A stretch of 64,000 nt of DNA from Variovorax paradoxus (GTDB lineage: Bacteria > Pseudomonadota > Gammaproteobacteria > Burkholderiales > Burkholderiaceae_C): contig NZ_JXQQ01000044.1 of NCBI RefSeq assembly GCF_000834655.1, positions 62,001 through 126,000 on the forward strand, written 5' to 3'. Shown here in pieces: positions 412 to 16,706 of the stretch; the stretch's first letter is position 1; every line of letters starts with the position of its first letter. The translations under genes were made by a program, and so were the position numbers. The notes under the pieces are model-generated. The model saw only the letters and a list, made by a program, of their open reading frames with translations. It searched no databases and was not told the DNA's origin.

Positions 412-1764
412 ATGAATTCCAGGTTTACGCCACAAATTGTAAAAATCGCCACCATCGGCGTATTCATCGTTTTCGCTCTTTGCATATATCCGGTGTCGCG
501 CGCGCACCCTTGGTCGGACGATTGGACTTACCCCGGAATTTACGGCTCCAATTGGAAAGAATTTTTCCAATGGGTTGTTGCACAGCACGTCGATCATCGA
601 ATCCCCATCATCAAACTCGTTCAATACGGATTGTTGAAAGCGAGCCGATTCGATTTTCGAGTTTTGCTTCTGTTCAATGCCGCCATCGCTACTGTGGGAG
701 CACTGGCGCTGGCCGGTGCAGCGCGCTTGCACCGAGGGGCGGCGCATTGGGGCGACCTGGTCATTCCGCTGACGGTCCTGAACTTCGGGTTCGGCCTTTA
801 TGCATGGGCATTCTCTGCACAGTTCAGCTTCTGCATTGCGCTCAGCTTCGTGTTTCTATTTCTATTCATGAAGTCGCAATCCGCGAACTCCGGGCCCTTG
901 CTGATTGCAGCGATGGTGGCGCTATGGGCATGCGCCCTGTGTGGCATGAATGGCGCCATCGTAGCCACGGTGATTTCGGCGGCCATCCTGGTACTTGCGA
1001 TTCGCCAGAAGGCCTGGAATACCCAACGCGCCATGATCGCCGGCCCTGCGTCCGTGCTCGCGACGACGGCAGCGGTCTTTCTCACGTGGCAGCCATCCGG
1101 AACCACGCTCGCTGCGCAGACCGATCCCGCGACGCGCATGCTTTCGTGGGCGCGCCACCTCGTGGAATCCAGCTTCATCGTGGACGGCTGGCTGCAGGGC
1201 TACTGGCGCCCCATCCTGTGCGCAGTGTTCTTTGGCGCGGCGCTGGTGCGCGTACTGGCCTATCTGATGCAGGCTCTGCGCCGCGGCAACGCCGACATGG
1301 CGAAGGTCGCGCTCCACGCCACCCTCCTGGCGTACGCCATGCTTTTCGTCTCGATCGTGCTCGGGCGCTCGCGCAGCGGCGAATGGTCGCCCGGCCTGGA
1401 GATGCACTACGGCTACCTCGTGGTGGCCCTGGTTCCGCTCTCCTGGATCATCGTGACGGAATCGGGAAAGAAGACGCTGGCGAGATGGGCATTGGCAGCG
1501 GTGCTGGTGGTTGCATATGGACACGCCTTCAGATGGGGAGCGCTTTATCGCTTGCATGATGTTCGCGACAACAATGCCCAGTACAGCAACGCCACCTTGG
1601 CCATCGGTTCTCAGGAGGCTCCGGAGTCGCTGGCCAAGCGCAAGATCGCCAGCTATTTCTTCGTCGATACGCCGGACACCCAGGGCACCGTCGCACAGGG
1701 GATCGCCAAGCTGCGACAGGTAGGCGGTCCGCTCTACAAGACGCCGCCCGCGGCATCGAACTGA
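412..1764 (+). CDS. Polytopic membrane protein, possible GT-C-type glycosyltransferase
   Basis: This 450-residue protein has roughly nine or ten hydrophobic segments, starting at residues 11-27, and a soluble C-terminal tail of about 70 residues. Just after the first membrane segment is an acidic SDDW motif (residues 35-38). A paired acidic residue in the first periplasmic loop is typical of GT-C enzymes such as ArnT and PMT, which use polyprenyl-phosphate sugars. A second conserved-looking loop, around EMHYGYLV, comes before the last membrane pair. I cannot place it in a named family, so the enzyme role is inferred from topology, this motif and the neighbouring FkbM and arabinose genes. Codon use is less GC-biased at the 5' end than in its neighbours. 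It could instead be a polymerase or a transporter. Confidence 0.55.
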   Translation: MNSRFTPQIVKIATIGVFIVFALCIYPVSRAHPWSDDWTYPGIYGSNWKEFFQWVVAQHVDHRIPIIKLVQYGLLKASRFDFRVLLLFNAAIATVGALALAGAARLHRGAAHWGDLVIPLTVLNFGFGLYAWAFSAQFSFCIALSFVFLFLFMKSQSANSGPLLIAAMVALWACALCGMNGAIVATVISAAILVLAIRQKAWNTQRAMIAGPASVLATTAAVFLTWQPSGTTLAAQTDPATRMLSWARHLVESSFIVDGWLQGYWRPILCAVFFGAALVRVLAYLMQALRRGNADMAKVALHATLLAYAMLFVSIVLGRSRSGEWSPGLEMHYGYLVVALVPLSWIIVTESGKKTLARWALAAVLVVAYGHAFRWGALYRLHDVRDNNAQYSNATLAIGSQEAPESLAKRKIASYFFVDTPDTQGTVAQGIAKLRQVGGPLYKTPPAASN

Positions 1765-1785
1765 GCCTCGGGACGTCACAACCCC

Positions 1786-3147
1786 ATGCCCACGAACACC
1801 CCTCATCCCGTCACCACACGCTACGGCCTGATGCATCTGCTCGGGCGGGATTCCATCGTGTCGGAATCGCTGGCGCTGTACGGCGAGTGGGCCCAGCAGG
1901 AGATCGACTTCCTCGCCCATTTCATCGCGCCGGGATCGGCGGTGCTCGACGTCGGCGCCTTCATCGGAACGCACACGCTGGCCTTCTCCACGTTGGTGGG
2001 CGACCGGGGCACCGTGATCGCGTTCGAACCGCGCGCCGAAGCCTTCGAGCTGCTGACCCGCAACATGCAGGACAACCAGCGCACGAACGTTCGCCTTCAC
2101 CAGCAAGGCGTCTCCGACGCACCGGCCAGCATCCAGCTGCACCGGATGCCATCCGGCGCCCTGACGAACTTCGCGGGGCTGGCGCTCGAGGACGACGACA
2201 AAGGCCCGGCCTCGGGGCCTGCGTACGAAGTGCCGCTCGTGACCGTCGACAGCCTCGCGCTTTCCGCCGTCGGCCTGCTAAAGATCGACGTCGAGGGCAT
2301 GGAAAGGCAGGTGCTCGACGGCGCGCGCGAGACGATCGCTTCCTTCAAGCCCGCGGTGTTCGCCGAGGCCAACTCGATTGCCGCCGGATTGAAGATCCTC
2401 ACGTGGTGCCAAGCAAATGGCTACGAATGCCTGGGGCACCTGACCGACGCCTTCAATCCGGAGAACTTCAACGGCCAGGCGCGCAGCATCTTCGACGGCG
2501 GCAGGGAACTCAACCTCCTGCTGCTGCCGGCTGGCCGGGCACTGCCCGAGGGCCTGCCGTGGGTGTTCGCGATCGACAACGCGGACGACATGGCGGCCGT
2601 GATGCTTCACAAGCCGCAGTACCCCCACGAGGTATTGAGGCTTGCGAACAGGGGGCAGGGGCCGGGCCTGTCGTATCCGTCTCCGGCCGCGCAGGCTGCG
2701 ACGCAGGCCCACCAGAAACTCGAGAGCGAGGTATCGGACCTGCGGGCCGAAGTGCAGGCAGCCCAGGCCGCGCAGCGCGCCCAGGCTGCCGCGTTGCAGG
2801 CCGCCGCACAGGCCGCACAGGCTGCTTCGCAGACGCGCGAAAGACTGCAAGGTGAACTGAACGCCCTGCAATCCGCACTCGCTGCGGCAGAGGCAAAGAC
2901 TGATGCGCTGACGACGCAGTTGACGCAGGCGCTCATGGCGCAGGGCCGCGTCGGCCTGCAGCTCGCAGACGCCACGAGCGACCTCGTACACGCGAACGCC
3001 TACCTCGATACCCTGAAGAACCACCACGAAACGGCATTGGCCGAACTGGCCGCCCTTCGCAACAGCCGCTCGTGGAAATTCACTGCGCCCTTGCGCGATG
3101 TGGGCGGCCGGATGCGAGCCGTGCTGAACCGTTTCAGGCCTCGCTGA
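1786..3147 (+). CDS. FkbM-family methyltransferase with C-terminal coiled coil
   Basis: The first 250 residues form an FkbM-type SAM-dependent methyltransferase. Motif I is VLDVGAFIGTHT at residues 53-64, an acidic end-of-strand follows in AFEPRAEAFE, and LLKIDVEGME is the typical post-II FkbM signature. Residues about 300-400 are an Ala/Gln/Glu-rich region with heptad-like spacing, so a long coiled coil. The protein ends with an SRSWKFTAPLR segment, which recurs at the C-termini of surface-polysaccharide methyltransferases and glycosyltransferases. FkbM proteins usually O-methylate sugars or polyketides. In this locus the likely substrate is a glycan, perhaps as a capping methyl with the coiled coil acting as ruler or scaffold; that is inference. 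It starts 22 bases after the upstream gene stops. Confidence 0.85.
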   Translation: MPTNTPHPVTTRYGLMHLLGRDSIVSESLALYGEWAQQEIDFLAHFIAPGSAVLDVGAFIGTHTLAFSTLVGDRGTVIAFEPRAEAFELLTRNMQDNQRTNVRLHQQGVSDAPASIQLHRMPSGALTNFAGLALEDDDKGPASGPAYEVPLVTVDSLALSAVGLLKIDVEGMERQVLDGARETIASFKPAVFAEANSIAAGLKILTWCQANGYECLGHLTDAFNPENFNGQARSIFDGGRELNLLLLPAGRALPEGLPWVFAIDNADDMAAVMLHKPQYPHEVLRLANRGQGPGLSYPSPAAQAATQAHQKLESEVSDLRAEVQAAQAAQRAQAAALQAAAQAAQAASQTRERLQGELNALQSALAAAEAKTDALTTQLTQALMAQGRVGLQLADATSDLVHANAYLDTLKNHHETALAELAALRNSRSWKFTAPLRDVGGRMRAVLNRFRPR

Positions 3148-3342
3148 CGCGGGCAAGAGGCCGTGCGAGCGCCCGCTGCGGGGGGCCGCGCGAAGGCATT
3201 TAGCTCGGGGCAATGCCAATAGAATCCTCGTTTTTGCATCTCATCCCGCGAACATGCGTACCGTCGCTGAAACTCGAGTCTTGCAGCCACGGCAAATCAA
3301 CCCGTCGCAACGTCCCCGGGACGCCAAGGCTGACCCGTTGCC

Positions 3343-4842
3343 ATGAGCGCATTGCCCCACGTGCGAGATGACACTGGCACGCCCTCTTCCCTCGCTTCGC
3401 CCGTCTCTTCCACGACCGCGGGCCAACGGATCATCGCGGTCGACCTCGATGGAACACTGATCCGTTCAGACCTCCTTGTCGAAAGCGTCTTCCTGCTGCT
3501 CAGGTACCACCCCCTGCTCTTCGTGCGGGCCCTGTTCTGGGTCCTGAAGGGCAAGGCCTATTTCAAGCGCAGGATCGCCGATGCGGTCTCGCCCATCGTC
3601 CAGACGCTGCCCTACAACCAGCCGCTCATCGCGTGGCTCGAGGTGCAGAAGAAAGCCGGCGCGCGCCTCGTGCTGGCCACGGCGTCGGAGACTCGCCTCG
3701 CCAGGGAAGTCGCCGCCCACGTGGGCCTCTTCGACGAAGTCCTCGGCACCGAGAACGAGAACCTCGCATCGACCAACAAGCGCAAGGCGCTGGTCGCTCG
3801 CTACGGTGAGCAGGGCTTCGAGTACGTCGGCAACTCGTCGGCCGACCTGAACGTGTGGCGCTCCGCTAGCGTCGTGCACGTGGTGAACCCCGAGTTCGGC
3901 GTGCTCGCGCGCGCGCGCCGGATGGGACGCACGGGGCAGGTGTTCGACGATCGCGCCAGCTACCTGCGCGTGCTGCGCAAGGCGCTGCGCCTGCACCAGT
4001 GGGCCAAGAACCTGCTGGTGTTCGTGCCCCTCCTGGCAACCCACCAGCTGATGAACCTGGACCTGCTGCTCAACGGCGTGCTGGCATTCATCTGCTTTGG
4101 CATGTGCGCATCGAGCGTATACATCCTGAACGACCTGCTCGACCTGAAGGACGACCGGCAGCACCGCACCAAGCGCAACCGGCCGCTCGCGGCCGGGACC
4201 TTCCCGATGGTGCACGCCATGGTCTGGATGGCGGCGCTGCTCGTGCTGGCATTCGGGCTGGCGCTGCTGTTGCTGCCCTGGCGATTTGCGCTCGTGCTCT
4301 GCGCGTACTACGTGCTCACGCTCGGCTACTCGCTCTGGATCAAGCGGCTGGTGATGCTCGACGTGATCACGCTGGCCATGCTCTACACGGTGCGCGTGGT
4401 CGCCGGCGCGGCAGCCATCGTGGCGCCGCTGACGTTCTGGATCCTCGCGTTCTGCATGTTCATGTTCCTGAGCCTCGCGTTCGTCAAGCGCTACACGGAG
4501 CTCTACGACGCCAAGGAACAGCGCAAGGGCGACGCCGTGCCCGGCCGGGGCTACCAGCTGCAGGATTTCGAGCTGCTCGCCTCGCTCGGCGGCTCGTCGG
4601 GCTACCTGTCGGTGCTGGTGCTGGCGCTCTACATCAACGACACCTCGGCATTGACCCTCTACGGGCACCCCAAGCTCTTGTGGATGGCTTGCCCGCTGCT
4701 CCTGTTCTGGCTGAGCCGCGTCTGGCTGATCGCGCACCGCGGCCAGATGAACGACGACCCCATCGTCTTCGCGCTGCGCGATCGCGTGAGCCAGTTGATC
4801 GGCCTCGCGTTTGCAAGCACCTTCGTCCTCGCCTCGCTTTGA
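3343..4842 (+). CDS. HAD phosphatase-UbiA prenyltransferase fusion (polyprenyl-phosphate phosphoribosyltransferase-like)
   Basis: Two domains are fused in 499 residues. Residues about 28-200 are HAD-like: motif I DLDGT at 34-38, motif II in VLATASE, and motif IV GNSSAD near 163-168. Residues about 205-499 are a UbiA integral-membrane prenyltransferase with the Asp-rich NDLLDLKDD motif at 263-271 and a second polar loop YTELYDAKEQRKGD. In mycobacteria the UbiA homologue Rv3806c transfers 5-phosphoribose from PRPP to decaprenyl phosphate, and a phosphatase then removes the 5-phosphate. A fusion of both activities fits that pathway and fits the DprE1- and DprE2-like genes directly downstream. 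The GTG-free ATG start follows a 195-base gap, so the operon promoter may lie in 3148-3342. Motif IV has Asn where the first acidic residue is usual. Confidence 0.85.
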   Translation: MSALPHVRDDTGTPSSLASPVSSTTAGQRIIAVDLDGTLIRSDLLVESVFLLLRYHPLLFVRALFWVLKGKAYFKRRIADAVSPIVQTLPYNQPLIAWLEVQKKAGARLVLATASETRLAREVAAHVGLFDEVLGTENENLASTNKRKALVARYGEQGFEYVGNSSADLNVWRSASVVHVVNPEFGVLARARRMGRTGQVFDDRASYLRVLRKALRLHQWAKNLLVFVPLLATHQLMNLDLLLNGVLAFICFGMCASSVYILNDLLDLKDDRQHRTKRNRPLAAGTFPMVHAMVWMAALLVLAFGLALLLLPWRFALVLCAYYVLTLGYSLWIKRLVMLDVITLAMLYTVRVVAGAAAIVAPLTFWILAFCMFMFLSLAFVKRYTELYDAKEQRKGDAVPGRGYQLQDFELLASLGGSSGYLSVLVLALYINDTSALTLYGHPKLLWMACPLLLFWLSRVWLIAHRGQMNDDPIVFALRDRVSQLIGLAFASTFVLASL

Positions 4843-6176
4843 ACGCGCGCACCCGCCTGTCCTGGGGAAGGTACCCGCAGCATCCGCAGACGGTCCATCC
4901 CGTCCAGTGGCCTTCGGAGGTCGAAGGCGCCGTGGCCGAAGCGCTCGCGGCCGCCACCGGCGGCACCCTGGCGTTCGGCATGGGCCGCAGCTACGGCGAT
5001 TCGTGCATGGCCGCGTCGGACCACGTGGTCGCCACGGCGGGCTTCGACCGGGTGCTCTCCGCGGACTGGGACACCGGCACGATCGTTGCCCAGCCGGGCC
5101 TCACCCTCGGCGCCCTGATCGACATGGCCCTGCCGCGCGGCTGGTTCCTGCCCGTCACGCCCGGCACCAAGTTCGTCACACTCGGCGGCGCGGTCGCCAA
5201 CGACGTGCACGGCAAGAACCACCATGTGACGGGCACCTTCGGCCGCCACGTGAAGCGCCTGTCGCTGCTGCGGACCGACGAAGGCGTCGTCGAGTGCTCG
5301 CCCGACGTCAACGCCGAGCTGTTCGAGGCGACTGTCGGCGGGCTCGGACTCACCGGCATCGTGCTGTCGGTCGAGCTGCAGTTGCGCCGCGTCGAATCGG
5401 CGTATGTCGACCAGTGCGCCATCAAGTTCGGCGGCCTCGACGAATTCTTCGCGCTGTCCGAAGAACTGGATGCCCGCCATGAATACGCAGTCGCCTGGGT
5501 CGATTGCCTGGCCACGGGACGGCATGCTGGGCGAGGCCACTACATCGTCGGGAATCACGCCACCGACGGACGGCTGCAGATCGCGCCGCCGCGGCCCAGG
5601 AGCATGCCGGTGGACCCGCCCTTCTCGCTGGTCAACGGTCTGACGCTCAAGGCTTTCAACACTCTCTATTACCACCGCCAGCAGACGAAGCGCGTGACCT
5701 CGGTCGTCGGCTACGACCCCTTCTTCTATCCGCTGGACGGCCTGCTGCAATGGAACCGCATGTACGGACGCGGCGGCTTCCAGCAATACCAATGCGTGAT
5801 CCCGCACGCGAACGCCCGCGACGCGATCCGCGCGATGCTCGCGGAAATCGCGCGCAGCGGCAGCGGCTCCTTCCTCGCGGTGCTCAAGCGCTGCGGCGAC
5901 ATCCGCTCGCCAGGGTTGCTTTCCTTTCCACTGGAGGGCGTTTCGCTCGCGCTCGATTTCGCGCAGCGCGACACCGCCAACGCCACCCTGTTCGCCCGGC
6001 TCGACGCGCTGGTCGACGAAGCGGGCGGGCGCCTCTATCCGGCCAAGGATGCGCACATGGGCGCAATCCATTTCCAGAAGGCCTATCCCGCGTGGCCCCG
6101 CGTCGAAGCGCTTCGCGACCGCCATCTGCAATCCCGCTTCTGGCAGCGGGTTACTCAACGGGGCCTCACCTCATGA
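4839..6176 (+). CDS. FAD-linked oxidase, DprE1-like (polyprenyl-phosphoribose 2'-epimerase subunit 1)
   Basis: I place the start at TTG 4839, overlapping the previous stop by four bases (TTGA), giving 445 residues; no later start keeps the N-terminal FAD domain. The FAD_binding_4 fold is clear: GMGRSYGDS, VTLGGAVANDVHG, then HGKNHH at 124-129 and TVGGLGLTG. The C-terminal half keeps DprE1 features such as QWNRMYGRGGFQQYQ, and the catalytic-type lysine in RLYPAKD (K403). In Mycobacterium tuberculosis DprE1 oxidises decaprenyl-phospho-ribose at C2'. The cysteine attacked by benzothiazinones (C387 there, in ICVDF) corresponds here to alanine 371 in LALDF, by my alignment from memory. The DprE2-like partner is directly downstream. 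Substrate identity is inferred from family and context. Confidence 0.87.
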   Translation: MNARTRLSWGRYPQHPQTVHPVQWPSEVEGAVAEALAAATGGTLAFGMGRSYGDSCMAASDHVVATAGFDRVLSADWDTGTIVAQPGLTLGALIDMALPRGWFLPVTPGTKFVTLGGAVANDVHGKNHHVTGTFGRHVKRLSLLRTDEGVVECSPDVNAELFEATVGGLGLTGIVLSVELQLRRVESAYVDQCAIKFGGLDEFFALSEELDARHEYAVAWVDCLATGRHAGRGHYIVGNHATDGRLQIAPPRPRSMPVDPPFSLVNGLTLKAFNTLYYHRQQTKRVTSVVGYDPFFYPLDGLLQWNRMYGRGGFQQYQCVIPHANARDAIRAMLAEIARSGSGSFLAVLKRCGDIRSPGLLSFPLEGVSLALDFAQRDTANATLFARLDALVDEAGGRLYPAKDAHMGAIHFQKAYPAWPRVEALRDRHLQSRFWQRVTQRGLTS

Positions 6177-6919
6177 CGACAAAGAACATCCTGATCATCG
6201 GCGCGACCTCCGGCATCGCCGAGGCCGTGGCGCGCCGCTATGCGGCGTCGAACTGCAACTTCGTGCTCGTGGGCCGGGACACCGCCAAGCTCGACGTCAT
6301 CGCGAGCGACCTTGCCGCGCGCGGCGCGGCAAGTGTCCATGTGCTGCCATGGGACGCGAACGACGTCGCGCAGGCTGGCGCAACGATCGCCGGCGCGTGG
6401 CAGCAACTCGGCACCGTAGACCTCGCGCTGATCGCGCACGGCTCGCTGCCCGACCAGGCGCGCGCCGAGGAAGACCTGGCCTACGCCGTCGAACAGTTCC
6501 GCCTCAACGGCGAGAGCGCCGTCGTCTGCATGCTGGCGCTCGCGCAGCATTTCCGCAAACAAGGCAACGGCACGCTCGCGGTGATCGGCTCGGTGGCCGG
6601 CGACCGGGGCCGGCCGACCAACTACGTGTATGGCGCCGCCAAGGGTGCGGTGGAAGATTGCGCCTCGGGCCTGAGAGCGAGCCTCTTCAAGCAGGGCGTG
6701 CACCTGCTGCTCATCAAGCCAGGCTTCGTCGCGACGCCGATGACGGCGCACCTGGAACTGCCGGGTGCATTGACGGCCTCGGCCGACCAGGTGGCGCAGG
6801 ACATCCAGCGCGCCGTGGCACGCGGCAGCGACGTGCTCTACACGCGCTGGTTCTGGCGCTGGATCATGCTGATCATCAAGAGCATCCCCACCCTGGTCTT
6901 CAAGCGCCTGAGCCTCTGA
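6173..6919 (+). CDS. SDR reductase, DprE2-like (polyprenyl-phospho-2-keto-pentose reductase)
   Basis: This 248-residue classical short-chain dehydrogenase has the cofactor motif GATSGIAEA near the N-terminus, a catalytic serine region VIGSVAG, and the active-site pair Y153 and K157 in YGAAK. Its C-terminus is an amphipathic or hydrophobic tail (FWRWIMLIIKSIPTL), which is also seen in DprE2 and suits a lipid-linked substrate at the inner membrane. Its ATG overlaps the previous TGA (ATGA at 6173-6176), so the two products are probably made together, as expected for the two halves of the ribose-to-arabinose epimerase. Together they would turn polyprenyl-phospho-ribofuranose into polyprenyl-phospho-D-arabinofuranose. 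Confidence 0.85.
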   Translation: MTTKNILIIGATSGIAEAVARRYAASNCNFVLVGRDTAKLDVIASDLAARGAASVHVLPWDANDVAQAGATIAGAWQQLGTVDLALIAHGSLPDQARAEEDLAYAVEQFRLNGESAVVCMLALAQHFRKQGNGTLAVIGSVAGDRGRPTNYVYGAAKGAVEDCASGLRASLFKQGVHLLLIKPGFVATPMTAHLELPGALTASADQVAQDIQRAVARGSDVLYTRWFWRWIMLIIKSIPTLVFKRLSL

Positions 6920-6956
6920 CGCGCACCGCGCACCAAAGACAAATCACGCAAAACCC

Positions 6957-7892
6957 ATGAACAAGAAAATCGTACTGCCCGGCGGCGCCGGCCTCGTGGG
7001 CCAGAACCTGGTGGCACGCCTGCGGGCACGTGGCTACACGGACATCGTCGTGCTCGACAAGCACGAGCACAACCTCGAAGTCCTGCGCAAGACGCAGGAC
7101 GGCATCACGGCGGAGCACGCCGACCTCGCCAGGCCCGGCACCTGGCAGCGGCACTTCGAAGGCGCGCACACCGTCGTCATGTTGCAGGCGCAGATCGGCG
7201 GCATCGACTACAAGGAATTCGAGGACAACAACGTGGCCTCGACCCAGCTCATCCTCGAAGAGATTCGAAAGCACAAGATCCCTCAGCTGGTCCACATCAG
7301 CTCATCGGTGGTGGAGTCGGTGGCCGATGACTTCTACACGCGCAGCAAGAAGGAGCAGGAGCGCATCGTGCTGGAGAGCGGCATCGAATGCCCGATCCTG
7401 CGGCCGACGCTGATGTTCGGCTGGTTCGACCGCAAGCACCTGGGCTGGCTGTCGCGCTTCATGGCGCGCGTGCCGGTTTTTCCGATTCCGGGCAACGGCA
7501 AGTTCATGCGCCAGCCGCTGTACGTGGGCGACTTCTGCAACGTGATCATCAGCTGCATCGAGAACGACGTGCGCACCGGCATCTTCAACATCACGGGCCA
7601 CGAACAGGTCGACTACATCGACATCATTCGCGAAATCAAGCGCGTGACGAAAGCCAAGGCCCATATCGTGAAGATCCCCTACGGCCTCTTCTATGCGCTG
7701 CTGTGGGTCTGGTCGCTCTTCGACCGCAACCCGCCCTTCACCACGCAGCAGCTGCAGGCGCTGGTGGCGCGCGACGAATTCGAAGTCATCGACTGGCCCG
7801 GCATCTTCGGCGTACGCAGCACGCCCTTCGCCGAGGCCATCGAGGAAACCTTCAACCACCCGGTCTACAGCCAGGTTGCATTGGAGTTCTGA
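6957..7892 (+). CDS. NAD-dependent epimerase/dehydratase family protein
   Basis: This 311-residue extended-SDR protein has the nucleotide motif GGAGLVGQN near residue 9, the serine region HISSSVVES, and the catalytic-type Y127xxxK131 in YTRSK. The C-terminal part resembles sugar-nucleotide epimerases, with ITGHEQVDYIDI and a hydrophobic stretch IPYGLFYALLWVWSLF that could touch a membrane. Its substrate is unknown. It sits between the DprE2-like gene and a HemY-like FAD protein, with its stop directly abutting the next ATG. It is not part of the three-step arabinose route known from mycobacteria, so it may modify the lipid-linked pentose or make another sugar for the same glycan. Confidence 0.8.
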   Translation: MNKKIVLPGGAGLVGQNLVARLRARGYTDIVVLDKHEHNLEVLRKTQDGITAEHADLARPGTWQRHFEGAHTVVMLQAQIGGIDYKEFEDNNVASTQLILEEIRKHKIPQLVHISSSVVESVADDFYTRSKKEQERIVLESGIECPILRPTLMFGWFDRKHLGWLSRFMARVPVFPIPGNGKFMRQPLYVGDFCNVIISCIENDVRTGIFNITGHEQVDYIDIIREIKRVTKAKAHIVKIPYGLFYALLWVWSLFDRNPPFTTQQLQALVARDEFEVIDWPGIFGVRSTPFAEAIEETFNHPVYSQVALEF

Positions 7893-9251
7893 ATGACGGC
7901 GTCTTCCACTTCGATCTCCACCTCGACCCCCACCCCAGCCAGGCCATCCCAGCGCATCGCGGTGCTCGGCGCCGGGCCCATGGGCCTGGCGGTGGCGTAC
8001 CAACTGACCCTCGAAGGCCATCGGCCGGTGGTCTTCGAGGCCGACAACCGCGTGGGCGGCATGACGGCCGCGTTCGATTTCAGCGGACTGAAGATCGAGC
8101 GCTACTACCACTTCCACTGCATCTCCGACGCAGCCTTCCTGCAGGTGCTGGACGAACTGGGCCTCGGCGCGAAGATGAACTGGGTCGCCACGAAGATGGG
8201 CTACTGGTACCAGAACCGCCTGCAGGCCTGGGGCAACCCGGTGGCGCTGCTGCGCTTCAAGGGCCTGGGCTTGGTGGCCAAGTTCCGCTATGGCCTGCAT
8301 GCCTTTCTTTCCACCAAGCGCAACGACTGGAAGCCGCTGGACCGCCTGGATGCCACGGAATGGATCAAGCGCTGGGTCGGCGCCGAAGCCTACGAGGTGC
8401 TCTGGCGGCGCCTCTTCGACTACAAGTTCTACGACTACAGCTCGAACCTCTCGGCCGCCTGGATCTGGAGCCGCATCCGGCGCATCGGGCGCTCGCGCTA
8501 CAGCCTCTTCAAGGAGAAGCTGGGCTACCTGGAAGGCGGCTCGCAGACGTTGCTCGATGCGATGAAGAACGCCATCGAAAGCAAGGGCGGCGAGATCCGG
8601 CTGTCGTCTCCGGCCTCCAGGGTCGTGATCGAAGCGGGCGCGGTCAAGGGCGTGCAGACCGCGGCCGGCATCGAAGCCTTCGACAAGGTGATCAGCACGG
8701 TGCCGCTGCCTTACGTGCCGCGCCTCATGCCCGACTTGCCGCCCGATGTGCTCGCGTCCTTCGCGGCGCTGAAGAACATCGCGGTGGTCTGCGTGATAGC
8801 CAAGCTGCGCAAGCCGCTGACCGAGAATTTCTGGCTCAACATCAACGATCCCGAGATGGACATCCCGGGCCTCGTGGAATACAGCAACCTGCGGCCCCTG
8901 AGCCCGCACGTGCTGTACGTGCCGTTCTACATGCCGGGCGAGCACCCCAAGTTCCAGGACGCCGACGAGGTGTTCCTGGCCAAGGTGCGCGCCTACTGCA
9001 TGAAGATCAACCCGAGCCTCACCGCCGACGATTTCGTCGACATGCGCGCAAGCCGCTACCGCTACGCGCAACCGATCTGCGATCCCGGCTACCTGGACCA
9101 CCTGCCGCCGGCCGCGTTGCCGGTGAAGGGGCTGTGGGTGGCCGACACGTCCTACTACTACCCCGAAGACCGCGGCATTTCGGAGAGCATCGGGTTCGGC
9201 CGCCAGCTGGCGACCTCGGCAGCACTCGACACGCTTCAGGCCGCAGCATGA
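7893..9251 (+). CDS. FAD/NAD(P)-dependent oxidoreductase, HemY/amine-oxidase superfamily
   Basis: The 452-residue protein has a Ser/Thr/Pro-rich first 20 residues and then an ADP-binding GAGPMG motif at 26-31. The FAD-ribose glutamate is in VVFEADNRVGG, followed by GGSQTLLDAM and a C-terminal FAD motif near GLWVADTSYYYPEDRG. This is the COG1232 type, which includes protoporphyrinogen oxidase, carotenoid desaturases and UDP-galactopyranose-mutase-like enzymes. A heme role is unlikely because no heme gene is near and it lies inside a glycan operon. It starts at the base after the upstream stop. A mutase, desaturase or oxidase acting on a sugar or a polyprenyl carrier is possible; the actual reaction is unknown. 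Confidence 0.8.
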   Translation: MTASSTSISTSTPTPARPSQRIAVLGAGPMGLAVAYQLTLEGHRPVVFEADNRVGGMTAAFDFSGLKIERYYHFHCISDAAFLQVLDELGLGAKMNWVATKMGYWYQNRLQAWGNPVALLRFKGLGLVAKFRYGLHAFLSTKRNDWKPLDRLDATEWIKRWVGAEAYEVLWRRLFDYKFYDYSSNLSAAWIWSRIRRIGRSRYSLFKEKLGYLEGGSQTLLDAMKNAIESKGGEIRLSSPASRVVIEAGAVKGVQTAAGIEAFDKVISTVPLPYVPRLMPDLPPDVLASFAALKNIAVVCVIAKLRKPLTENFWLNINDPEMDIPGLVEYSNLRPLSPHVLYVPFYMPGEHPKFQDADEVFLAKVRAYCMKINPSLTADDFVDMRASRYRYAQPICDPGYLDHLPPAALPVKGLWVADTSYYYPEDRGISESIGFGRQLATSAALDTLQAAA

Positions 9252-9261
9252 GAAGCCTGTC

Positions 9262-9651
9262 GTGGTGATTCCCCAGTTCCTGCGCTTCCTCGTCGCCGGC
9301 GGCATCGCGGCAGCGGCCAACTACGGGTCGCGCTTTGTCTTCAGCATCTGGCTGAGCTACAGCGTGGCGATCGTGCTGGCTTACCTGGTCGGCATGATCG
9401 TGGCGTTCGCGCTCATGCGGCACCACGTCTTCGATGCCAAGGCCGGCGACCTGCGCGCACAGGTCGCGAAGTTCGTCGTCGTGAATGTCTTCGCGGTGCT
9501 GCAGACGCTCGCCATCAGCCTGGTGCTGGTGCATTGGGTGTTCCCGGCCTTCGGCGTCGTGAACCATGCCGAAGCCATCGCGCACCTCGTGGGGGTGCTG
9601 GTGCCCGCAGTCACGAGCTACTTCGGGCACCGGATGCTGACGTTCAAATGA
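9262..9651 (+). CDS. GtrA-family small membrane protein (lipid-linked sugar flippase-like), first copy
   Basis: This 129-residue protein has four hydrophobic segments and the GtrA pattern FLRFLVAGGIAAAANYGSRF at its start, with HHVFDAK after the second segment and FGHRMLTFK at the end. GtrA proteins are associated with moving polyprenyl-phosphate sugars across the inner membrane. The start is a GTG at 9262, with a second GTG directly after it at 9265, and it lies 10 bases after the preceding stop. In the Pseudomonas aeruginosa pilin D-arabinofuranose system, as I recall it, a GtrA-like gene also follows the DprE-type genes. Here it would present the lipid-linked pentose to the GT-C enzyme encoded next. 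Confidence 0.88.
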   Translation: MVIPQFLRFLVAGGIAAAANYGSRFVFSIWLSYSVAIVLAYLVGMIVAFALMRHHVFDAKAGDLRAQVAKFVVVNVFAVLQTLAISLVLVHWVFPAFGVVNHAEAIAHLVGVLVPAVTSYFGHRMLTFK

Positions 9652-11747
9652 ACCTCGGATCGGCCGACACCAGGCGTTTTCTCTGGCCGACCCTTGCCTG
9701 CGTCGGCGTCTTTATCTGCCTGATCGCAGGAATCGCCGCATCGGGCATTCCCGTTGCCCAGACCCTGAAGGACGCGAAGCCCTACGTGTTGCTTGCGGTT
9801 GCGCTCGGAGGCATCGCGCTCTTTGGCGCATGGCGTCGCGTGGAACCCGCAGCGGTTCTGCTGGCGCTGTTTGCCATCCTGTCGGTGCAATTCGTCGAGG
9901 TGTCGGCCTTCATTGCAATGCCGGCCTTCCTGCTGGCATCTGCGGTCGTGGGGCAACGCATCGGGAGGCGCTTCGGCGTGGCCGACCTGCTCCTGGCCAC
10001 GTTCATCGGCATCTTCGTCCTGACGGGCCTTATCAGCTGGACGCTGCCCTACAAGATCCACACGCGCTGGGTCTACACGGTCCTGCTGGCCGGGCTGCTC
10101 TGGCTGGAGCGCCGCGCGGCGCGCGACGTGCTGCTGGTCACCTGGCGGGGATGCGCCGACGCCCTGTCGCGCTCGAAGGCCGCCGCGAGCCTGGCCCTGG
10201 TCGTTGCCGTCGCCTCGCTGTCTACCGCCTGGCTGCCCAGCATCTTCTTCGACGACCTCGCCTACCACTCGATGCTGCCAACGCAGCTGATCCACCTAGG
10301 CTACTACCGCTTCGACGTGGCGACGCAGGTCTGGGCGGTCGCGCCCTGGGCCTCCGACATCGTGCATGCGGTGGTGGGCGTGCTGGCCAACACGGAGTCG
10401 CGTGGCGCCGTCAACATCGGATGGTTCTGGCTCGCCTGCTGCGCGCTCTGGCGATTCGGCGCGCTCATCGGCCTCAGCGACAAATGGAAGTGGCTGGGCA
10501 TCGCGCTCTATGCGAGCCAGCCGTACATCAGCGGCCTCTTCGGGACCGCGCAAGTGGAGAACGAGCTTGTTCCCCTCACGCTGGCACTGGCCATCCTCTG
10601 CGTGCGGATCTGCAGGGACAAGGACCCAAACGCGATCTACGCACTCGTGATCCTGGCGGGGCTTTTCGCTGCGCTGAAGGCGTCGCAGGCCCTGGTGATC
10701 GCACCTTTCGTTCTTGTCTGCGCGCCCGCGCTGTTCAAGGCCAACTTGCGCAAGTTGCTGCTCGCGGCCGCCATCGCCCTGGCACTCGGCAGCTCGAGCT
10801 ACGTGTATGCCTGGCTCGCCACCGGCAACCCGTTGCTGCCGCTGTTCAATGCCTACTTCAAGTCGCCGTTCTTCCCGATCACGAATTTCCACGACGGGCG
10901 TTGGTCGCAAGGCCTGAACTGGCGCAGCGTGTGGGACCTCACGTTCGCGACGGACAAATACCAGGAGACCAGCGCCGGCGGCGCGGGGCTTTCGGTGCTG
11001 GCATTGAGCATCCCACTGCTCGCAACGCTGGCTATTGCGGCGCTGCGCCGCACGACCCTCTGGCTGCTTCTCGCGCTGGTGGGCATGTTCGCGGCAATCC
11101 AGTACCTGCGCTACATCGCGCCGCTCTTGATCGTGGCGATTCCGCTCGCGCTGTTCGCCATCGACAGGTATGTGGCGCCGAAGATCGCAACGGGTGCCGT
11201 CGTCATCCTGGTCGTCGCCAACCTGGTGCTCATCCCGACGTCGATCTATCTGCTCAGGGACAAGCTGCTTCACACGCAACTGAGCTCGCTGGTCAAGAGG
11301 TCCAAGGGCGATGCGAACGAGCAGATTCTGCGGAACTACGCCTTCGAGACCGTCGCAGCCGCGCACCTGCTGAAGGACCCCGCTCCAGCCAGGGCCGTCT
11401 TCCTCGCCGACAAGGAGCGCCCTTTCACCGCGCCGTTCGCGGGCCGCGCCTTCGCGCAGAGCTGGTACGACACCTACTTCTCGGCGGCCGGCGCCGAAGC
11501 GGACGCCGACCTCACGGGCGAGCGCTGGAAGCAGCTTCTTTCTCTCAACGGCATCGGCTTCGTGCTGGCGAAGAACGATCCGGCCGATCGTCCCGCGCTG
11601 CACGCGGTGCTGCGTGCCGACGCCGTGCCGACGCTGGTGGGCCCTGCCCACACGCTGTATTGCCTGTGCAAGCCTCGGCAGCCGGCGGCAGCTGGCGATG
11701 CGCTCTACAAGGCCCGGGACCTGAGCGCCCGGCTCAGGTTGTTCTGA
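9648..11747 (+). CDS. Large polytopic membrane protein, probable GT-C glycosyltransferase (arabinosyltransferase candidate)
   Basis: The 699-residue protein has about twelve hydrophobic segments and a soluble C-terminal domain of around 150 residues. A loop after the first group of membrane segments holds FFDDLAYH (D202, D203), the acidic pair expected in the catalytic loop of GT-C enzymes. Its ATG overlaps the stop of the first gtrA-like gene by four bases and a second gtrA-like gene follows five bases later. A GT-C enzyme uses polyprenyl-phosphate sugars on the periplasmic side, which is what this operon appears to make. I infer that it transfers D-arabinose or a derivative to a protein or glycan acceptor. 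No named family was recognised; a polymerase is the main alternative. Confidence 0.7.
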   Translation: MNLGSADTRRFLWPTLACVGVFICLIAGIAASGIPVAQTLKDAKPYVLLAVALGGIALFGAWRRVEPAAVLLALFAILSVQFVEVSAFIAMPAFLLASAVVGQRIGRRFGVADLLLATFIGIFVLTGLISWTLPYKIHTRWVYTVLLAGLLWLERRAARDVLLVTWRGCADALSRSKAAASLALVVAVASLSTAWLPSIFFDDLAYHSMLPTQLIHLGYYRFDVATQVWAVAPWASDIVHAVVGVLANTESRGAVNIGWFWLACCALWRFGALIGLSDKWKWLGIALYASQPYISGLFGTAQVENELVPLTLALAILCVRICRDKDPNAIYALVILAGLFAALKASQALVIAPFVLVCAPALFKANLRKLLLAAAIALALGSSSYVYAWLATGNPLLPLFNAYFKSPFFPITNFHDGRWSQGLNWRSVWDLTFATDKYQETSAGGAGLSVLALSIPLLATLAIAALRRTTLWLLLALVGMFAAIQYLRYIAPLLIVAIPLALFAIDRYVAPKIATGAVVILVVANLVLIPTSIYLLRDKLLHTQLSSLVKRSKGDANEQILRNYAFETVAAAHLLKDPAPARAVFLADKERPFTAPFAGRAFAQSWYDTYFSAAGAEADADLTGERWKQLLSLNGIGFVLAKNDPADRPALHAVLRADAVPTLVGPAHTLYCLCKPRQPAAAGDALYKARDLSARLRLF

Positions 11748-11752
11748 AGGCC

Positions 11753-12130
11753 ATGCGGCAACTCGTCCTCTTCGGCGTGATCGGCGTGACGCAGCTCGTC
11801 GCCGACACGCTGATCTTCTATCTGCTGCTCAAGCTGTCGATCACGCCGTGGATCGCGAACTCGATCTCGCGGTTCCTTGCGCTCCTTCTGGGTTTTGCGC
11901 TGAACGGTGCGATCACGTTCAGGCAGCCCGACAACACGGCATCGACCTCGAAGAAAAGCTTCGTCCGCCTGCTGGTCCTTTGGCTGGCCTTGACCTTCGT
12001 GAGCTCCGAACTGGTCACGCTGGCGAGCCACCACGTCTCTGACCATCGATTGCTTGCGGCCAAGCTCGGGGTCGAACTCGCGCTGGCGTTCGTGTCGTTC
12101 TTCATTTCAAAGACCTGGGTTTACCGATGA
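11753..12130 (+). CDS. GtrA-family small membrane protein, second copy
   Basis: At 125 residues with four hydrophobic segments, it has the GtrA layout: FGVIGVTQLVADTLIFYLL, then RFLALLLGFALNGAITFR, two more segments, and the end FFISKTWVYR. It is clearly divergent from the copy at 9262, so this is not a recent duplication. The start ATG is five bases after the GT-C stop, and its own stop overlaps the ATG of the GT2 gene (ATGA, 12127-12130). The pairing with a DPM1-like GT2 matches the bactoprenol glucosylation layout gtrA-gtrB. It may therefore flip a second lipid-linked sugar made by that GT2. Confidence 0.87.
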   Translation: MRQLVLFGVIGVTQLVADTLIFYLLLKLSITPWIANSISRFLALLLGFALNGAITFRQPDNTASTSKKSFVRLLVLWLALTFVSSELVTLASHHVSDHRLLAAKLGVELALAFVSFFISKTWVYR

Positions 12131-13152
12131 CGCCACCACCGAACACCGCTCCCTTGCGCGCCATCGCGGTCGTCATCCCCTGCTACCGGTCGGGCGAACT
12201 GGCTCTGGACGTCATCCGGCGTATCGGGCCGGAAGTCGGCTGGATCTTCGTCGTCGACGACTGCTGCCCGGTCCAGACCGGACAGACGGTGCTCAAGCAC
12301 AGCACCGACCCCAGGGTCACTGTTCTTTTCCACGCCGAGAACCAGGGCGTGGGCGGCGCGGTGATCACGGGCTACAACGCGGCCATGAAGACGGACGCCT
12401 CCGTCGTCGTCAAGATCGACGGCGATGGGCAGATGGCGCCGGAGCGCATTCCGCAGTTGTGCAGCCCCATCCTTTCGGGGCAGGCGGACTACGTCAAGGG
12501 CAACCGCTTCCACATCGCCGGCGGCGTCGCGGCGATGCCGCCGCTTCGCCTGATCGGCAATGTCGCCCTGTCATTCATCACCAAGGCGTCGAGCGGCTAC
12601 TGGCAGCTGTTCGATCCGACGAACGGGTACACCGCGATCCACGCCCGGGTGCTGGCCGAACTGGACACCGGGAAGATCGCGAAGCGCTACTTCTTCGAAT
12701 CCGACATGCTGTTTCGGCTGAACCTGCTGCGGGCCGTCGTCTCCGAAATGCCGATGAAGGCTGCCTACGACGGCGAACCGTCGAGCCTGAGCCCGATGAA
12801 GGTGATCGCGCCGTTCCTGAGGGGCAACACGCGCAACTTCTTCAAGCGCGTGCTCTACCGCTACTTCGTCTCGGATTTTTCGCTCGCCTCGCTGGAGCTC
12901 GTGTTCGCGGTGCCGCTGCTGGCGTTCGGCATCATCTACGGCGCCGAGCACCTGCTGTCGAACCGCATCAGCGGCGGCGTGGCCTCTGCGGGCACGGTGA
13001 TGGCGTCGGCCTTGCCGATCATCCTGGGGTTCCAGCTTCTGCTGTCGTGGCTCAACTACGACGTGTCGGGCCAGCCCACGCAGGCATTGCACCCGCAGTT
13101 GCCGCCGCTCGACGATGCACCGCCAGCGCAGCGCCCCCAGGCGCCGCCCTGA
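12127..13152 (+). CDS. Glycosyltransferase family 2, DPM1/GtrB-like, with two C-terminal membrane segments
   Basis: The N-terminal 220 residues form a GT-A domain: AVVIPCYRSGE at the start, VDDCC at 43-47 and the metal-binding DGDGQ at 98-102. Two membrane segments follow near residues 250-275 and 292-312, then a Pro-rich tail. This is the layout of polyprenyl-phosphate glycosyltransferases (GtrB, DPM1), which move a sugar from a nucleotide donor to undecaprenyl phosphate on the cytoplasmic face. Translational overlap with the second gtrA-like gene supports a flippase-transferase pair. The sugar is unknown. It ends four bases from the end of the convergent rfbC gene, with no room for a dedicated terminator. 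Confidence 0.85.
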   Translation: MTPPPNTAPLRAIAVVIPCYRSGELALDVIRRIGPEVGWIFVVDDCCPVQTGQTVLKHSTDPRVTVLFHAENQGVGGAVITGYNAAMKTDASVVVKIDGDGQMAPERIPQLCSPILSGQADYVKGNRFHIAGGVAAMPPLRLIGNVALSFITKASSGYWQLFDPTNGYTAIHARVLAELDTGKIAKRYFFESDMLFRLNLLRAVVSEMPMKAAYDGEPSSLSPMKVIAPFLRGNTRNFFKRVLYRYFVSDFSLASLELVFAVPLLAFGIIYGAEHLLSNRISGGVASAGTVMASALPIILGFQLLLSWLNYDVSGQPTQALHPQLPPLDDAPPAQRPQAPP

Positions 13153-13156
13153 TCGA

Positions 13157-13705
13157 TCAGTCGAACAGCGAGGCGTCCGCCAGCAGAGACGCCGCGGCGT
13201 CCTTGCCCGACAGCTGCGGTTCGACACCGGTCGCCGGCCATTCGATGGCCAGCTGCGGGTCGTTCCAGGCAATGGCGCGCTCGTGGGCGGGCGCGTAGTA
13301 GTCGGTGGTCTTGTAGAGGAATTCCGCTGTCTCGCTCAGCACCAGAAAGCCGTGCGCGAAGCCGGCCGGCACCCAGAGCTGCCTGTGGTTGTCTTCGCTC
13401 AACTCGACGCCCACCCACTTGCCGAAGGTCGGCGACGACTTGCGGATGTCGACGGCCACGTCGAACACCGCACCGCGCACCACCCGCACGAGCTTGCCCT
13501 GCGGCTGCTGGATCTGGTAGTGCAGTCCGCGCAGCACGCCCTTGACGGAGCGCGAATGGTTGTCCTGGACGAAGTCGACGTGCTTGCCGACTGCTTCGTC
13601 GAAGGCCTTCTGGTTGAAGCTCTCGAAGAAGAAGCCTCGTGCGTCGCCGAAGACCTTCGGCTCGATCACGATCACTTCAGGAATCGCGGTGGGCGTGGCC
13701 TTCAC
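13157..13705 (-). CDS. rfbC: dTDP-4-dehydrorhamnose 3,5-epimerase
   Basis: This 182-residue cupin-type enzyme converts dTDP-4-keto-6-deoxyglucose to dTDP-4-keto-L-rhamnose. Family motifs are plain: [13 protein letters not shown], the catalytic-histidine region [18 protein letters not shown], and [10 protein letters not shown]. Length is typical for RmlC. The start is a GTG at 13705 that overlaps the rfbA stop (GTGA), so translation is probably coupled. It is the last gene of rmlBDAC on the minus strand and converges with the GT2 gene. The C-terminal 25 residues ([19 protein letters not shown]) are an RmlC tail without known function. Confidence 0.95.
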
Positions 13706-14598
13706 GAGCGCACCTCGTCGTTCAGCAGGTGCTTGAGGTACTTGCCGTAGCCGCTCTTTTCCAGCGGCGCGGCGAGCTTGGAGAGCTGCTCGGTCGTGAT
13801 GAAGCCGTTGCGCCACGCGATTTCCTCGGGGCACGCGATCTTCAGGCCTTGCCGATGCTCGAGCGTGGCGATGAATTGGCCGGCTTCCAGCAGGCTGTCG
13901 TGCGTGCCGGTATCGAGCCACGCATAGCCGCGCTGCATGATCTGCACGTTGAGCTGGTCGAGGTCCAGGTACGCCTGGTTGACCGCGGTAATTTCCAGTT
14001 CGCCGCGTGCGCTGGGCTTCACGGCCTTGGCGATGTCGACGACCTGGTTGTCGTAGAAGTAGAGGCCGGTGACCGCATAGCTGCTCTTGGGCTTGAGCGG
14101 CTTCTCTTCGATGCTGCTCGCCCTGCCCTTGGCATCGAAGGCCACCACGCCATAACGCTCGGGGTCGTGCACGTGGTACGCGAATACAGTGGCGCCCGAG
14201 GTCTTGGCGTCCGCGTCGGCCAGCAGGTGAGCGAAGTCGTGCCCATAGAAGATGTTGTCCCCCAGCACCAACGCACTCGGATCGTTCCCCACGAACTTGT
14301 CCCCGATGATGAACGCCTGCGCCAGCCCGTCCGGGCTCGGCTGCACCGCATATTGCAGGTTGATGCCCCATTGGCTGCCGTCGCCCAGCAGTTGCTGGAA
14401 ACGCGGCGTGTCCTGCGGCGTGCTGATGATCAATATGTCGCGCATGCCGCCCAGCATCAGCGTGCTCAGCGGGTAATAGATCATCGGCTTGTCGTACACC
14501 GGCAGCAGCTGCTTGCTCAGCGCCAGCGTCGCGGGATGCAGCCGGGTGCCCGAGCCACCGGCGAGGATGATGCCTTTGCGTTGCGTCGTTTGGGTCAT
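13702..14598 (-). CDS. rfbA: Glucose-1-phosphate thymidylyltransferase
   Basis: The first enzyme of dTDP-L-rhamnose synthesis, 298 residues, couples dTTP to glucose-1-phosphate. The nucleotidyltransferase signature [20 protein letters not shown] is near the N-terminus, followed by [23 protein letters not shown], and [13 protein letters not shown]. The ATG at 14598 puts the GxGTRL motif at the usual distance from the start. It overlaps rfbC by four bases and sits 32 bases after rfbD, inside the rmlBDAC order common in Burkholderiales. The enzyme is normally feedback-inhibited by dTDP-rhamnose. Confidence 0.96.
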
Positions 14599-14630
14599 GG
14601 GGTGTTCTTGTCTCTTGTCTTGCTTTGCGG

Positions 14631-15521
14631 TCAGAAGGTCTCGCGCAGCATGCGGGCGACGCCGGACTGCCATTCGGGCAGCACGAGGCCGAAGGTCGAT
14701 TGCAGCTTGGTGGTGTCCAGTCGCGAGTTGTGCGGGCGCGTGGCGGGCGTCGGGAATGCGGTCGTGGGCACGGGCTCGACCGCCTCGGGGCCGGCCTTGA
14801 GCTCCACGCCGGCGGCCTTCGCCTGCTCGATCACGAAACGCGCATAGCCGTGCCACGTGGTCACGCCGCCGGCCACCGCGTGATAGAGCCCGGCCTTGGA
14901 CGGGTCCTGCAGCGTTGCGCGAATGGCGTGCGCGGTGATGTCGGCCAGCAATTCCGCGCCGGTGGGCGCGCCGAACTGGTCGTCGATGACCGTGAGCTTG
15001 TCGCGCTCCTTGGCGATGCGAAGCATGGTCTTGGCAAAGTTGCCGCCGCGCGCGGCATACACCCAGCTGGTGCGAAAGATCAGGTGCTTGGCGCAATGCT
15101 GGGCCACCAGTTGCTCGCCTTCGAGCTTGGTGCTGCCGTACACGCTGAGCGGGCCGGTCGCGTCGTCTTCTTTCCAGGGCTTGGCTCCGCTGCCATCGAA
15201 GACGTAGTCGGTCGAGTAGTGAACCATCAGCGCGCCGATCCGCTGCGCCGCTTCGGCCACCACGCCGGGCGAGGTGGCGTTGAGCTTGCGGGCGAAGTCG
15301 GGCTCGCTCTCGGCCTTGTCGACCGCGGTGTGCGCCGCGGCATTGACGATGACGTCGGGGCGCACCTCCAGCACCGTCTCGGCGAGTTGCTCGGGGCGGC
15401 TGAAGTCGGCGTTGAAATCGGTGCTGTCGAAATCGAGCGCGACAAGTTCACCCAGGGGCGCGAGGCTGCGCTGCAGCTCCCAGCCGACCTGTCCGCCCTT
15501 GCCCAGCAGCAGCAGCTTCAT
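14631..15521 (-). CDS. rfbD: dTDP-4-dehydrorhamnose reductase
   Basis: The last step of dTDP-L-rhamnose synthesis, 296 residues. It is an SDR-fold protein beginning [20 protein letters not shown] with the GxGGQxG cofactor loop. The active-site YGSTKLEGE and the substrate region [18 protein letters not shown] are both typical of RmlD. The ATG at 15521 overlaps the rfbB stop by four bases, which argues for this start over longer in-frame extensions. Rhamnose from this pathway presumably feeds lipopolysaccharide or other glycans built with enzymes from the neighbouring plus-strand locus. Confidence 0.96.
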
Positions 15522-16591
15522 GCGTTGGCTTTCGTGGTGTCGTATTGCTTTTCGACCCATTCGCGGTACGCGCCGCTTTGCACGTTGCGCACCCACTCGC
15601 CGTTCGCGAGGTACCACTCGACGGTCTTGCGGATGCCGCTGTCGAAGGTCTCGGCGGGCTTCCAGCCGAGTTCGCGCTCGAGCTTGCGCGCGTCGATGGC
15701 GTAGCGGCGGTCGTGGCCGGGGCGGTCGGTCACGTAGGTGATCTGTTCCTTGTACGGCTTGCCGTCGGCCTTGGGGCTCAATTCGTCGAGCAGCGCGCAG
15801 ACGGTGTTGACGATCTCGATGTTGGGCTTCTCGTTCCAGCCGCCCACGTTGTAGGTCTCGCCGAGCTTGCCCGCTTCGAGCACGCGGCGAATGGCGCTGC
15901 AGTGGTCCTTCACGTAAAGCCAGTCGCGCACCTGCATGCCGTCGCCGTACACGGGCAGCGGCTTGCCGGCCAGCGCGTTGACGATCATCAGCGGGATGAG
16001 CTTCTCTGGGAAATGGAACGGGCCGTAGTTGTTCGAGCAGTTGGTGGTGACCACCGGCAGGCCGTAGGTGTGGTGCCAGGCGCGCACGAGGTGGTCGCTG
16101 GCGGCCTTGCTGGCCGAGTACGGGCTGTTGGGCTCGTACTTGTTCTCTTCGGTGAAGGCCGGGTCGGCCTTGGAAAGCGAGCCGTAGACCTCGTCGGTCG
16201 ACACGTGCAGGAATCGGAAGGCTGCCTTCTGGTCGGCAGGCAGCGCATTCCAGTAGCCGCGCACGGATTCGAGCAGGCGGAAGGTGCCGAGCACGTTGGT
16301 CTGCACGAAGTCTTCGGGACCGTGGATCGAGCGATCGACGTGCGATTCCGCGGCGAAGTTAACGATTGCCCGCGGTTTGTGTTCGACCAGCAGGCGGTCG
16401 AGCAGCGCGCTGTCGCCGATGTCGCCCTGCACGAAGATGTGGTTCGGATTGCCCTTGAGCGACGCGAGCGTCTCGAGGTTGCCCGCATAGGTCAGTTTGT
16501 CGAGGTTCACGACCGGCTCGTTGCCTTCTGCAATCCAGTCGAGTACGAAATTGGCGCCAATGAAGCCTGCGCCGCCGGTTACCAGGATCAT
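15518..16591 (-). CDS. rfbB: dTDP-glucose 4,6-dehydratase
   Basis: The second enzyme of the rhamnose pathway, 357 residues, is an extended SDR with [14 protein letters not shown] at the very start, the substrate segment [11 protein letters not shown], and [12 protein letters not shown] carrying the catalytic YxxxK. The late signature is [14 protein letters not shown]. The start at 16591 gives the standard N-terminus. It heads the rmlBDAC operon. On the minus strand a GATAAT hexamer (plus coordinates 16643-16648) lies about 50 bases upstream and may be the -10 box, but I see no convincing -35. The upstream gap is shared with the divergent glycine-riboswitch promoter. Confidence 0.96.
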
Positions 16592-16677
16592 GGGGTCCCC
16601 TGTTGTTGTCGAACAATCGCCCTCCGGCGAAATGAATGGATGATTATCCCATTGGCCCGCAGGGCCGAAACCTGGGG

Positions 16678-16706
16678 TTGGCGCATGCGAAGCCCGCACC
16701 TACAAT
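16678..16706 (+). promoter_or_regulatory. Sigma70-type promoter of the glycine-riboswitch transcript
   Basis: TTGGCG (16678-16683) and TACAAT (16701-16706) are separated by exactly 17 bases. The predicted transcription start is about seven bases later, near 16713, only a few bases before the first glycine aptamer begins. That position agrees with what a riboswitch leader needs, which raises confidence. Confidence 0.65.

Follow-up and report, generated by a model that had tools for sequence, protein, structure and literature searches.

What does a Variovorax strain make with three genes resembling those of mycobacterial arabinose synthesis, and what are the genes behind them for? The three genes lie near the start of a 64,000-nucleotide (nt) stretch, hereafter the window, which spans bases 62001-126000 of contig C78 in a 6.9 Mb Variovorax genome. 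An initial annotation read them as coupled genes for a UbiA-type phosphoribosyltransferase, a DprE1-like oxidase and a DprE2-like reductase, heading a nine-gene operon for an arabinosylated surface structure. The genes are real and correctly placed, as open frames at 3343-4842 (499 amino acids), 4839-6176 (445 amino acids, TTG start) and 6173-6919 (248 amino acids), with neighbouring frames overlapping by 4 nt each. Together with the three genes that follow, they form one six-gene module, which we call the cassette:

3343..4842, + strand: HAD-UbiA polyprenyl-phosphate phosphoribosyltransferase and phosphatase
4839..6176, + strand: DprE1-like oxidase, dependent on flavin adenine dinucleotide (FAD)
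6173..6919, + strand: DprE2-like short-chain reductase
6957..7892, + strand: extended short-chain dehydrogenase/reductase (SDR), an epimerase/dehydrogenase with Ser-Tyr-Lys kept, tied to the oxidase by co-occurrence (the epimerase)
7893..9251, + strand: PRK07233-type FAD oxidoreductase tied to the oxidase (the flavoprotein)
9262..9651, + strand: GtrA-type membrane protein 1 (GtrA1; PF04138, 59.6 bits), presumed flippase of the cassette

The core pathway itself is already known and is common in Gram-negative bacteria. The part worth testing is the conserved pairing of the epimerase and flavoprotein with that pathway. We propose, in a case that we judge to be evenly balanced, that the operon supplies a surface polysaccharide with a lipid-linked pentose and that the epimerase and flavoprotein remodel this pentose.

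The first protein matches HAD (PF12710, 39.4 bits) and then UbiA (PF01040, 83.7 bits) in Pfam, and clears the curated HAD-UbiA model PRK08238 with 627.6 bits against a cut-off of 351. Its closest solved structure is the mycobacterial DPPR synthase 8j8j (phosphoribosyltransferase Rv3806c; 103.7 bits), to which it aligns identically at NDxxDxxxD, at KRYxEL and at the R/E residues of cytoplasmic loop IV; the metal-binding role of NDxxDxxxD and the role of the loop IV residues are described in the partial text of Kelly et al. (2024; PMC11127046). The oxidase contains FAD_binding_4 (56.9 bits, Pfam) and is 39% identical to DprE1, sharing 159 of 409 aligned residues in a match that covers almost the entire protein. 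Among solved structures it scores 232.4 bits with DprE1 and 30.9 with the next family; against the NCBIfam DprE1 model NF053785 it scores 359.9 bits, where the cut-off is 500 and the next model reaches 41.5. Fifteen of 18 DprE1 positions checked, which we take to line the active site, are identical in the oxidase, including Y60, H132, K134, K367, Y415 and K418; the departures are S228V, Y314F and C387A. The oxidase at 4839-6176 has alanine where DprE1 has Cys387, the target of benzothiazinone drugs. The reductase matches adh_short (108.4 bits, Pfam), carries YxxxK and has DprE2 as its nearest solved relative (113.3 bits, next 61.6). In NCBIfam it scores 303.7 bits against PRK07102 (cut-off 267) and 188.3 bits against the DprE2 model NF053786, below its cut-off of 250. 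Pfam, NCBIfam and solved-structure matches thus bear out the three families, with the qualification that in profile searches the HAD-UbiA protein passes its cut-off while the other two, though adjacent to DprE1 and DprE2 by score, do not reach the cut-offs of those models; for that reason the names DprE1-like and DprE2-like are fitting. Judged from their sequences, the first three genes are best read as supplying a donor of the polyprenyl-phospho-D-arabinofuranose type.

Such a pathway is not rare. In the protein set, homologues of the oxidase number at least 7998; genome contigs contain at least 587 stretches that match it, and at E 1e-40 it occurs in 53 of the 274 class-level genomes. These counts rule rarity out. 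Phage records contain no match for the oxidase (E 1e-20) or the HAD-UbiA protein (E 1e-10). The initial annotation named the right enzymes, for a pathway that is known and not rare, and its naming of Azorhizobium and Pseudomonas as the known cases outside actinobacteria is out of date, because the Gram-negative pathway has been published (PMC11127046, partial text). Within a sample of 61 Variovorax genomes, its own included, the oxidase occurs at 68% identity or more in eight (again counting its own) and at 47-48% in two more. The epimerase, flavoprotein and GtrA1 genes adjoin the oxidase gene in all eight, and are absent from the stretch examined in the two. Since the oxidase and cassette occur in only part of the same-genus genomes, the locus is accessory in the genus.

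We compared 80 named loci, the best 80 of the at least 587 stretches by oxidase similarity and not a random sample; a locus counts as lacking the cassette when none lies in the flank examined (up to 10 kb), a statement about that flank and not about the genome. The HAD-UbiA and reductase genes are present at 78 of these loci each, the epimerase gene at 26, the flavoprotein gene at 25 and the GtrA1 gene at 26. Twenty-three of the 25 flavoprotein loci have the order HAD-UbiA, oxidase, reductase, epimerase, flavoprotein, GtrA1; ten of these contain an insert, and the other 13 have no gap of 450 nt or more. GtrA1 accompanies the pair in 25 of 25 cassette loci, compared with 1 of the 55 others. The cassette is found across Alpha-, Beta- and Gammaproteobacteria, and it also occurs on plasmids: of eight plasmid records with a flavoprotein match, seven, from Burkholderia, Rhizobium, Agrobacterium and a Rhodobacteraceae strain, hold all six genes in cassette order, the eighth, from Embleya, having a 29% flavoprotein match and none of the other five genes in the stretch examined. 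The literature searched, supplements left out, yielded no description of the six-gene cassette and nothing mentioning both Variovorax and arabinofuranose. That the epimerase, flavoprotein and GtrA genes make up one module with the core three had been missed in the initial annotation.

The pair is found where the oxidase is found. At E 1e-40 the epimerase occurs in 8 of the 274 class-level genomes, and each of these eight is one of the 53 that have the oxidase. The flavoprotein occurs in 11, of which eight, at 475 bits or more, are the same eight genomes and three, at 172-231 bits, have neither epimerase nor oxidase. The chance that all seven non-own genomes fall among the oxidase genomes is 6e-6 if genomes are taken as independent. 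In six of these seven the flavoprotein and oxidase genes lie less than 5 kb apart, the seventh (G132) having them on separate contigs. The family sample gave a flavoprotein in 11 of 299 genomes, eight of them at 449 bits or more, with the epimerase within 1.5 kb in six of the seven non-own genomes (not in G429). The pair thus depends on the oxidase, whereas the oxidase does not depend on the pair, and the simplest reading of this is a change of the lipid-linked pentose that the oxidase and reductase make. Because the epimerase and flavoprotein track the pathway so strictly, the sugar is likely to be changed further, and we infer that it need not end up as D-arabinofuranose.

Plain D-arabinofuranose (Araf) was the end product foreseen in the initial annotation; the epimerase and flavoprotein would then serve some other sugar or step and owe their linkage to co-transfer. 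By analogy the first three genes suffice for an Araf donor, 55 of the 80 named loci show the oxidase but no flavoprotein in the flanks examined, and co-mobile cassettes are present on plasmids. Co-transfer alone, however, should at times leave the pair with other systems, and the class sample shows no epimerase, and no flavoprotein above 231 bits, without the oxidase. The pattern of gain and loss on a tree of oxidases also fits a tailoring step better than this account, which we consider unlikely. That tree has 86 rows and was built by a quick method with support from the Shimodaira-Hasegawa-like approximate likelihood ratio test (SH-aLRT) only; its single DprE1 sits on a long branch, and it contains no outside family. 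Cassette presence was scored on 78 rows, DprE1 not being counted, nor L053, L072, L073, L102, L103, L114 and L123, whose contigs end less than 6 kb downstream. It requires 15 changes, at least seven of them forced by starred branches, and Paraburkholderia tropica, without the cassette, and P. bannensis, with it, are neighbours. Such coming and going of the pair is expected of an optional tailoring step.

Several observations nonetheless weigh against remodelling of the pentose by the pair. The linkage could reflect shared mobility and not a shared substrate; the oxidase and reductase both fall below the NCBIfam cut-offs for DprE1 and DprE2; gene order differs in 2 of the 25 named loci (L089 and L119) and in two class genomes; weak flavoproteins without an epimerase match occur in both samples (three at 172-231 bits in the class sample and three at 235-238 bits in the family sample); G429 has a 449-bit flavoprotein and no epimerase within 1.5 kb on either side; and the fold of the modelled flavoprotein does not fix its substrate. 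In the class genomes G165 and G159 (L163 and L166) the cassette genes lie together, but the oxidase gene comes after that for GtrA.

In 23 aligned epimerase orthologues the Ser-Tyr-Lys positions expected of an active SDR and the nucleotide-binding glycines are invariant, and the epimerase profile matches dehydratases (including 4,6-dehydratase structures), 4-epimerases and the 39 kDa subunit of complex I. The flavoprotein gave a confident structure model (predicted local distance difference test score, pLDDT, 88.6) of the fold class of phytoene desaturase, protoporphyrinogen oxidase, amine oxidases and UDP-galactopyranose mutase. Phytoene desaturase ranks first, and the mutase lies within about 4 Z units of it, behind protoporphyrinogen oxidase too. 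Conversion of polyprenyl-phospho-D-arabinose to L-xylose, which by stereochemical derivation is the C4 epimer of D-arabinose, could combine a furanose-pyranose mutase (the flavoprotein) with a C4 epimerase (the epimerase). Such roles would agree with the presence of the mutase among the fold relatives of the flavoprotein, and of sugar-4-epimerase and 4,6-dehydratase structures among the best epimerase profile matches. Four Xanthomonas loci carry the cassette, and Xanthomonas has an L-xylosylated rhamnan. An L-xylose product would also recall the O-polysaccharide of Ralstonia solanacearum, a rhamnan with a non-stoichiometric beta-L-xylopyranose branch (PMC10450222, partial text). We think this conversion very unlikely, however, as the oxidase is found in 1 of 16 genomes of genus g521, whose identity as Ralstonia is a guess, none of the nine flavoprotein genomes (of 249) belongs to g521, and the mutase ranks after two other families in the fold comparison.

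Alternatively, the pair could act as a second oxidase-reductase couple in the manner of DprE1 and DprE2 and invert C3 of lipid-linked D-arabinofuranose, giving D-lyxofuranose. The combination of an FAD oxidase and an SDR parallels DprE1/E2, and in Citrobacter the GalE-like SDR ORF13 makes xylofuranose from lipid-linked ribofuranose at C3 (PMC11127046, partial text). Nonetheless, ORF13 acts alone, which leaves the need for a flavoprotein unexplained, and according to the partial text of Kelly et al. (PMC11127046) lyxofuranose occurs in no solved structure; the inversion is, in our estimation, quite improbable. Lastly, the substrate of the flavoprotein may be the polyprenyl chain and not the sugar, in the manner of phytoene desaturase, which it most resembles. 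Given that a lipid change needs no oxidase, yet all class genomes with a strong flavoprotein have one, and that perfect pairing with a sugar-type SDR favours a sugar substrate, we find this the least probable of the alternatives.

If the pair does remodel the pentose, the cassette may be a portable route from phosphoribosyl pyrophosphate (PRPP) to a lipid-linked pentose other than furanose ribose, xylose or arabinose, an idea that we hold tentatively and with somewhat more doubt than belief. Polyprenyl-phospho-D-arabinofuranose would then be an intermediate, and the product a rare pentose donor such as D-lyxofuranose or L-xylose. We know of no biosynthetic route for such a donor. A compact cassette of soil and plant bacteria, sometimes plasmid-borne, would be supplying a pentose that would be annotated as arabinose. 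The newly described extracytoplasmic pentofuranose pathway would gain a second epimerisation layer, the large unnamed flavoprotein family PRK07233 would gain a function, and glycobiologists would have a marker telling them which strains to analyse. If the pair leaves the sugar unchanged, the locus adds one further example of a pathway already in print.

The functional unit probably starts upstream of 3343, at 412. The nine-gene run of the initial annotation is confirmed, with nine + strand genes in succession from 3343 to 13152 at gaps of -4 to +37 nt. The genes outside the cassette are:

412..1764, + strand: GT-C-type membrane glycosyltransferase by fold, candidate pentosyltransferase, outside the coordinates of the initial annotation
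1786..3147, + strand: FkbM-type methyltransferase (PF05050, 64.2 bits, residues 55-214) with a coiled-coil-like C-terminal half
9648..11747, + strand: second large membrane protein (gtC), GT-C-like by inspection only, with 13 hydrophobic segments
11744..12130, + strand: GtrA-type membrane protein 2 (gtrA2; PF04138, 51.3 bits)
12127..13152, + strand: GT2 glycosyltransferase (gt2; PF00535, 55.0 bits), resembling polyprenyl-phosphate-sugar synthases

Upstream neighbours encode ManC, ABC2_membrane, ABC_tran, GDP-mannose dehydratase and glycosyltransferases, as in an ABC-transporter O-antigen cluster, and the proposed link of the three core genes to a surface glycan is supported. The modelled fold of the 412-1764 protein is GT-C, with AftB as top match and other GT-Cs nearly tied, and this protein is likely the pentosyltransferase of the locus. 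No Emb-type protein was found among the genes of the operon, and family profile searches of the 11 genes from 412 to 13152 gave no MATE match, GtrA (PF04138) occurring twice. On the pathway that we propose, the oxidase and reductase would, by homology to DprE1/DprE2, invert C2 to give polyprenyl-phospho-D-arabinofuranose; the epimerase and flavoprotein, to go by their linkage, would jointly alter that lipid-linked pentose or the 2-keto intermediate; GtrA1 would flip the product to the periplasm; and the GT-C protein at 412-1764 would transfer the pentose to the polysaccharide of the adjoining O-antigen cluster.

A close described parallel is the three-component system of Citrobacter youngae O1/O2, which shares a HAD-UbiA polyprenyl phosphoribose synthase, a flippase, a GT-C transferase, an auxiliary epimerase gained or lost, and an ABC-transporter O-antigen setting. 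In the partial text of Kelly et al. (2024; PMC11127046), the Citrobacter HAD-UbiA protein makes polyprenyl-phospho-ribofuranose from PRPP, one SDR turns the sugar into xylofuranose, and a GT-C enzyme transfers the pentose in the periplasm. The flippase is GtrA here and MATE there, and the single SDR ORF13 contrasts with a DprE1/E2-like pair, a further SDR and an FAD protein here. The same reaction order is expected here as in the mycobacterial decaprenyl-phospho-D-arabinose pathway (Rv3806c, Rv3807c, DprE1, DprE2), of which Rv3806c, DprE1 and DprE2 are the closest solved structures of our three proteins, although the phosphatase is here a fused HAD domain and the epimerase and flavoprotein are extra. 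Arabinosylated pilin systems of Pseudomonas likewise have a DprE1/E2-type Araf donor in a Gram-negative, as the partial text of PMC11127046 indicates. Pseudomonas oxidases occur among the 80 named loci, but most Pseudomonas loci compared are without the epimerase and flavoprotein. That partial text also cites, from its supporting information, DprE1/E2 homologues in Gram-negative systems for Araf glycans, and mentions elaborate Xanthomonas and Bacillus systems with several candidate epimerases or GT-Cs; the Xanthomonas systems may be this very cassette.

The gtC, gtrA2 and gt2 genes resemble a second trio, one that would serve a different sugar, probably a hexose. They supply the three protein kinds expected of GtrA/GtrB/Gtr O-antigen glucosylation trios, although gtC is called a transferase by inspection only. 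It did not match the GT-C family of the cassette (hhalign, 1.6%), and gt2 scored 48.3 bits against an AglJ-type model and 42.4 bits against a PpgS-type model, both below cut-off. The gtC, gtrA2, gt2, FkbM and upstream GT-C genes are present at one of the 80 named loci, that of Variovorax sp. ZS18.2.2, and among the loci compared the trio (9648-13152) accompanies the cassette only there and here. The FkbM protein (1786-3147) has weak coiled-coil-type matches at residues 303-430, below cut-offs, and in outline it resembles those O-antigen chain terminators in which a methyltransferase is combined with a coiled-coil ruler. Genes rml lie at 13157-16699.

Small genes 3' of the reductase gene in loci without the cassette gave no Pfam match (10 proteins). 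In three loci tested, PF03706 flippase-like proteins lie near the cassette or oxidase (L041:4493-5989, L091:14722-15657 and L111:7355-8482). Plasmid pDG3-1a of Agrobacterium salinitolerans (L191), typed as conjugative, carries the whole cassette, with an IS3-family transposase gene about 5 kb away, and on the Rhizobium tumorigenes plasmids L189 and L209 pseudaminic acid genes adjoin the cassette.

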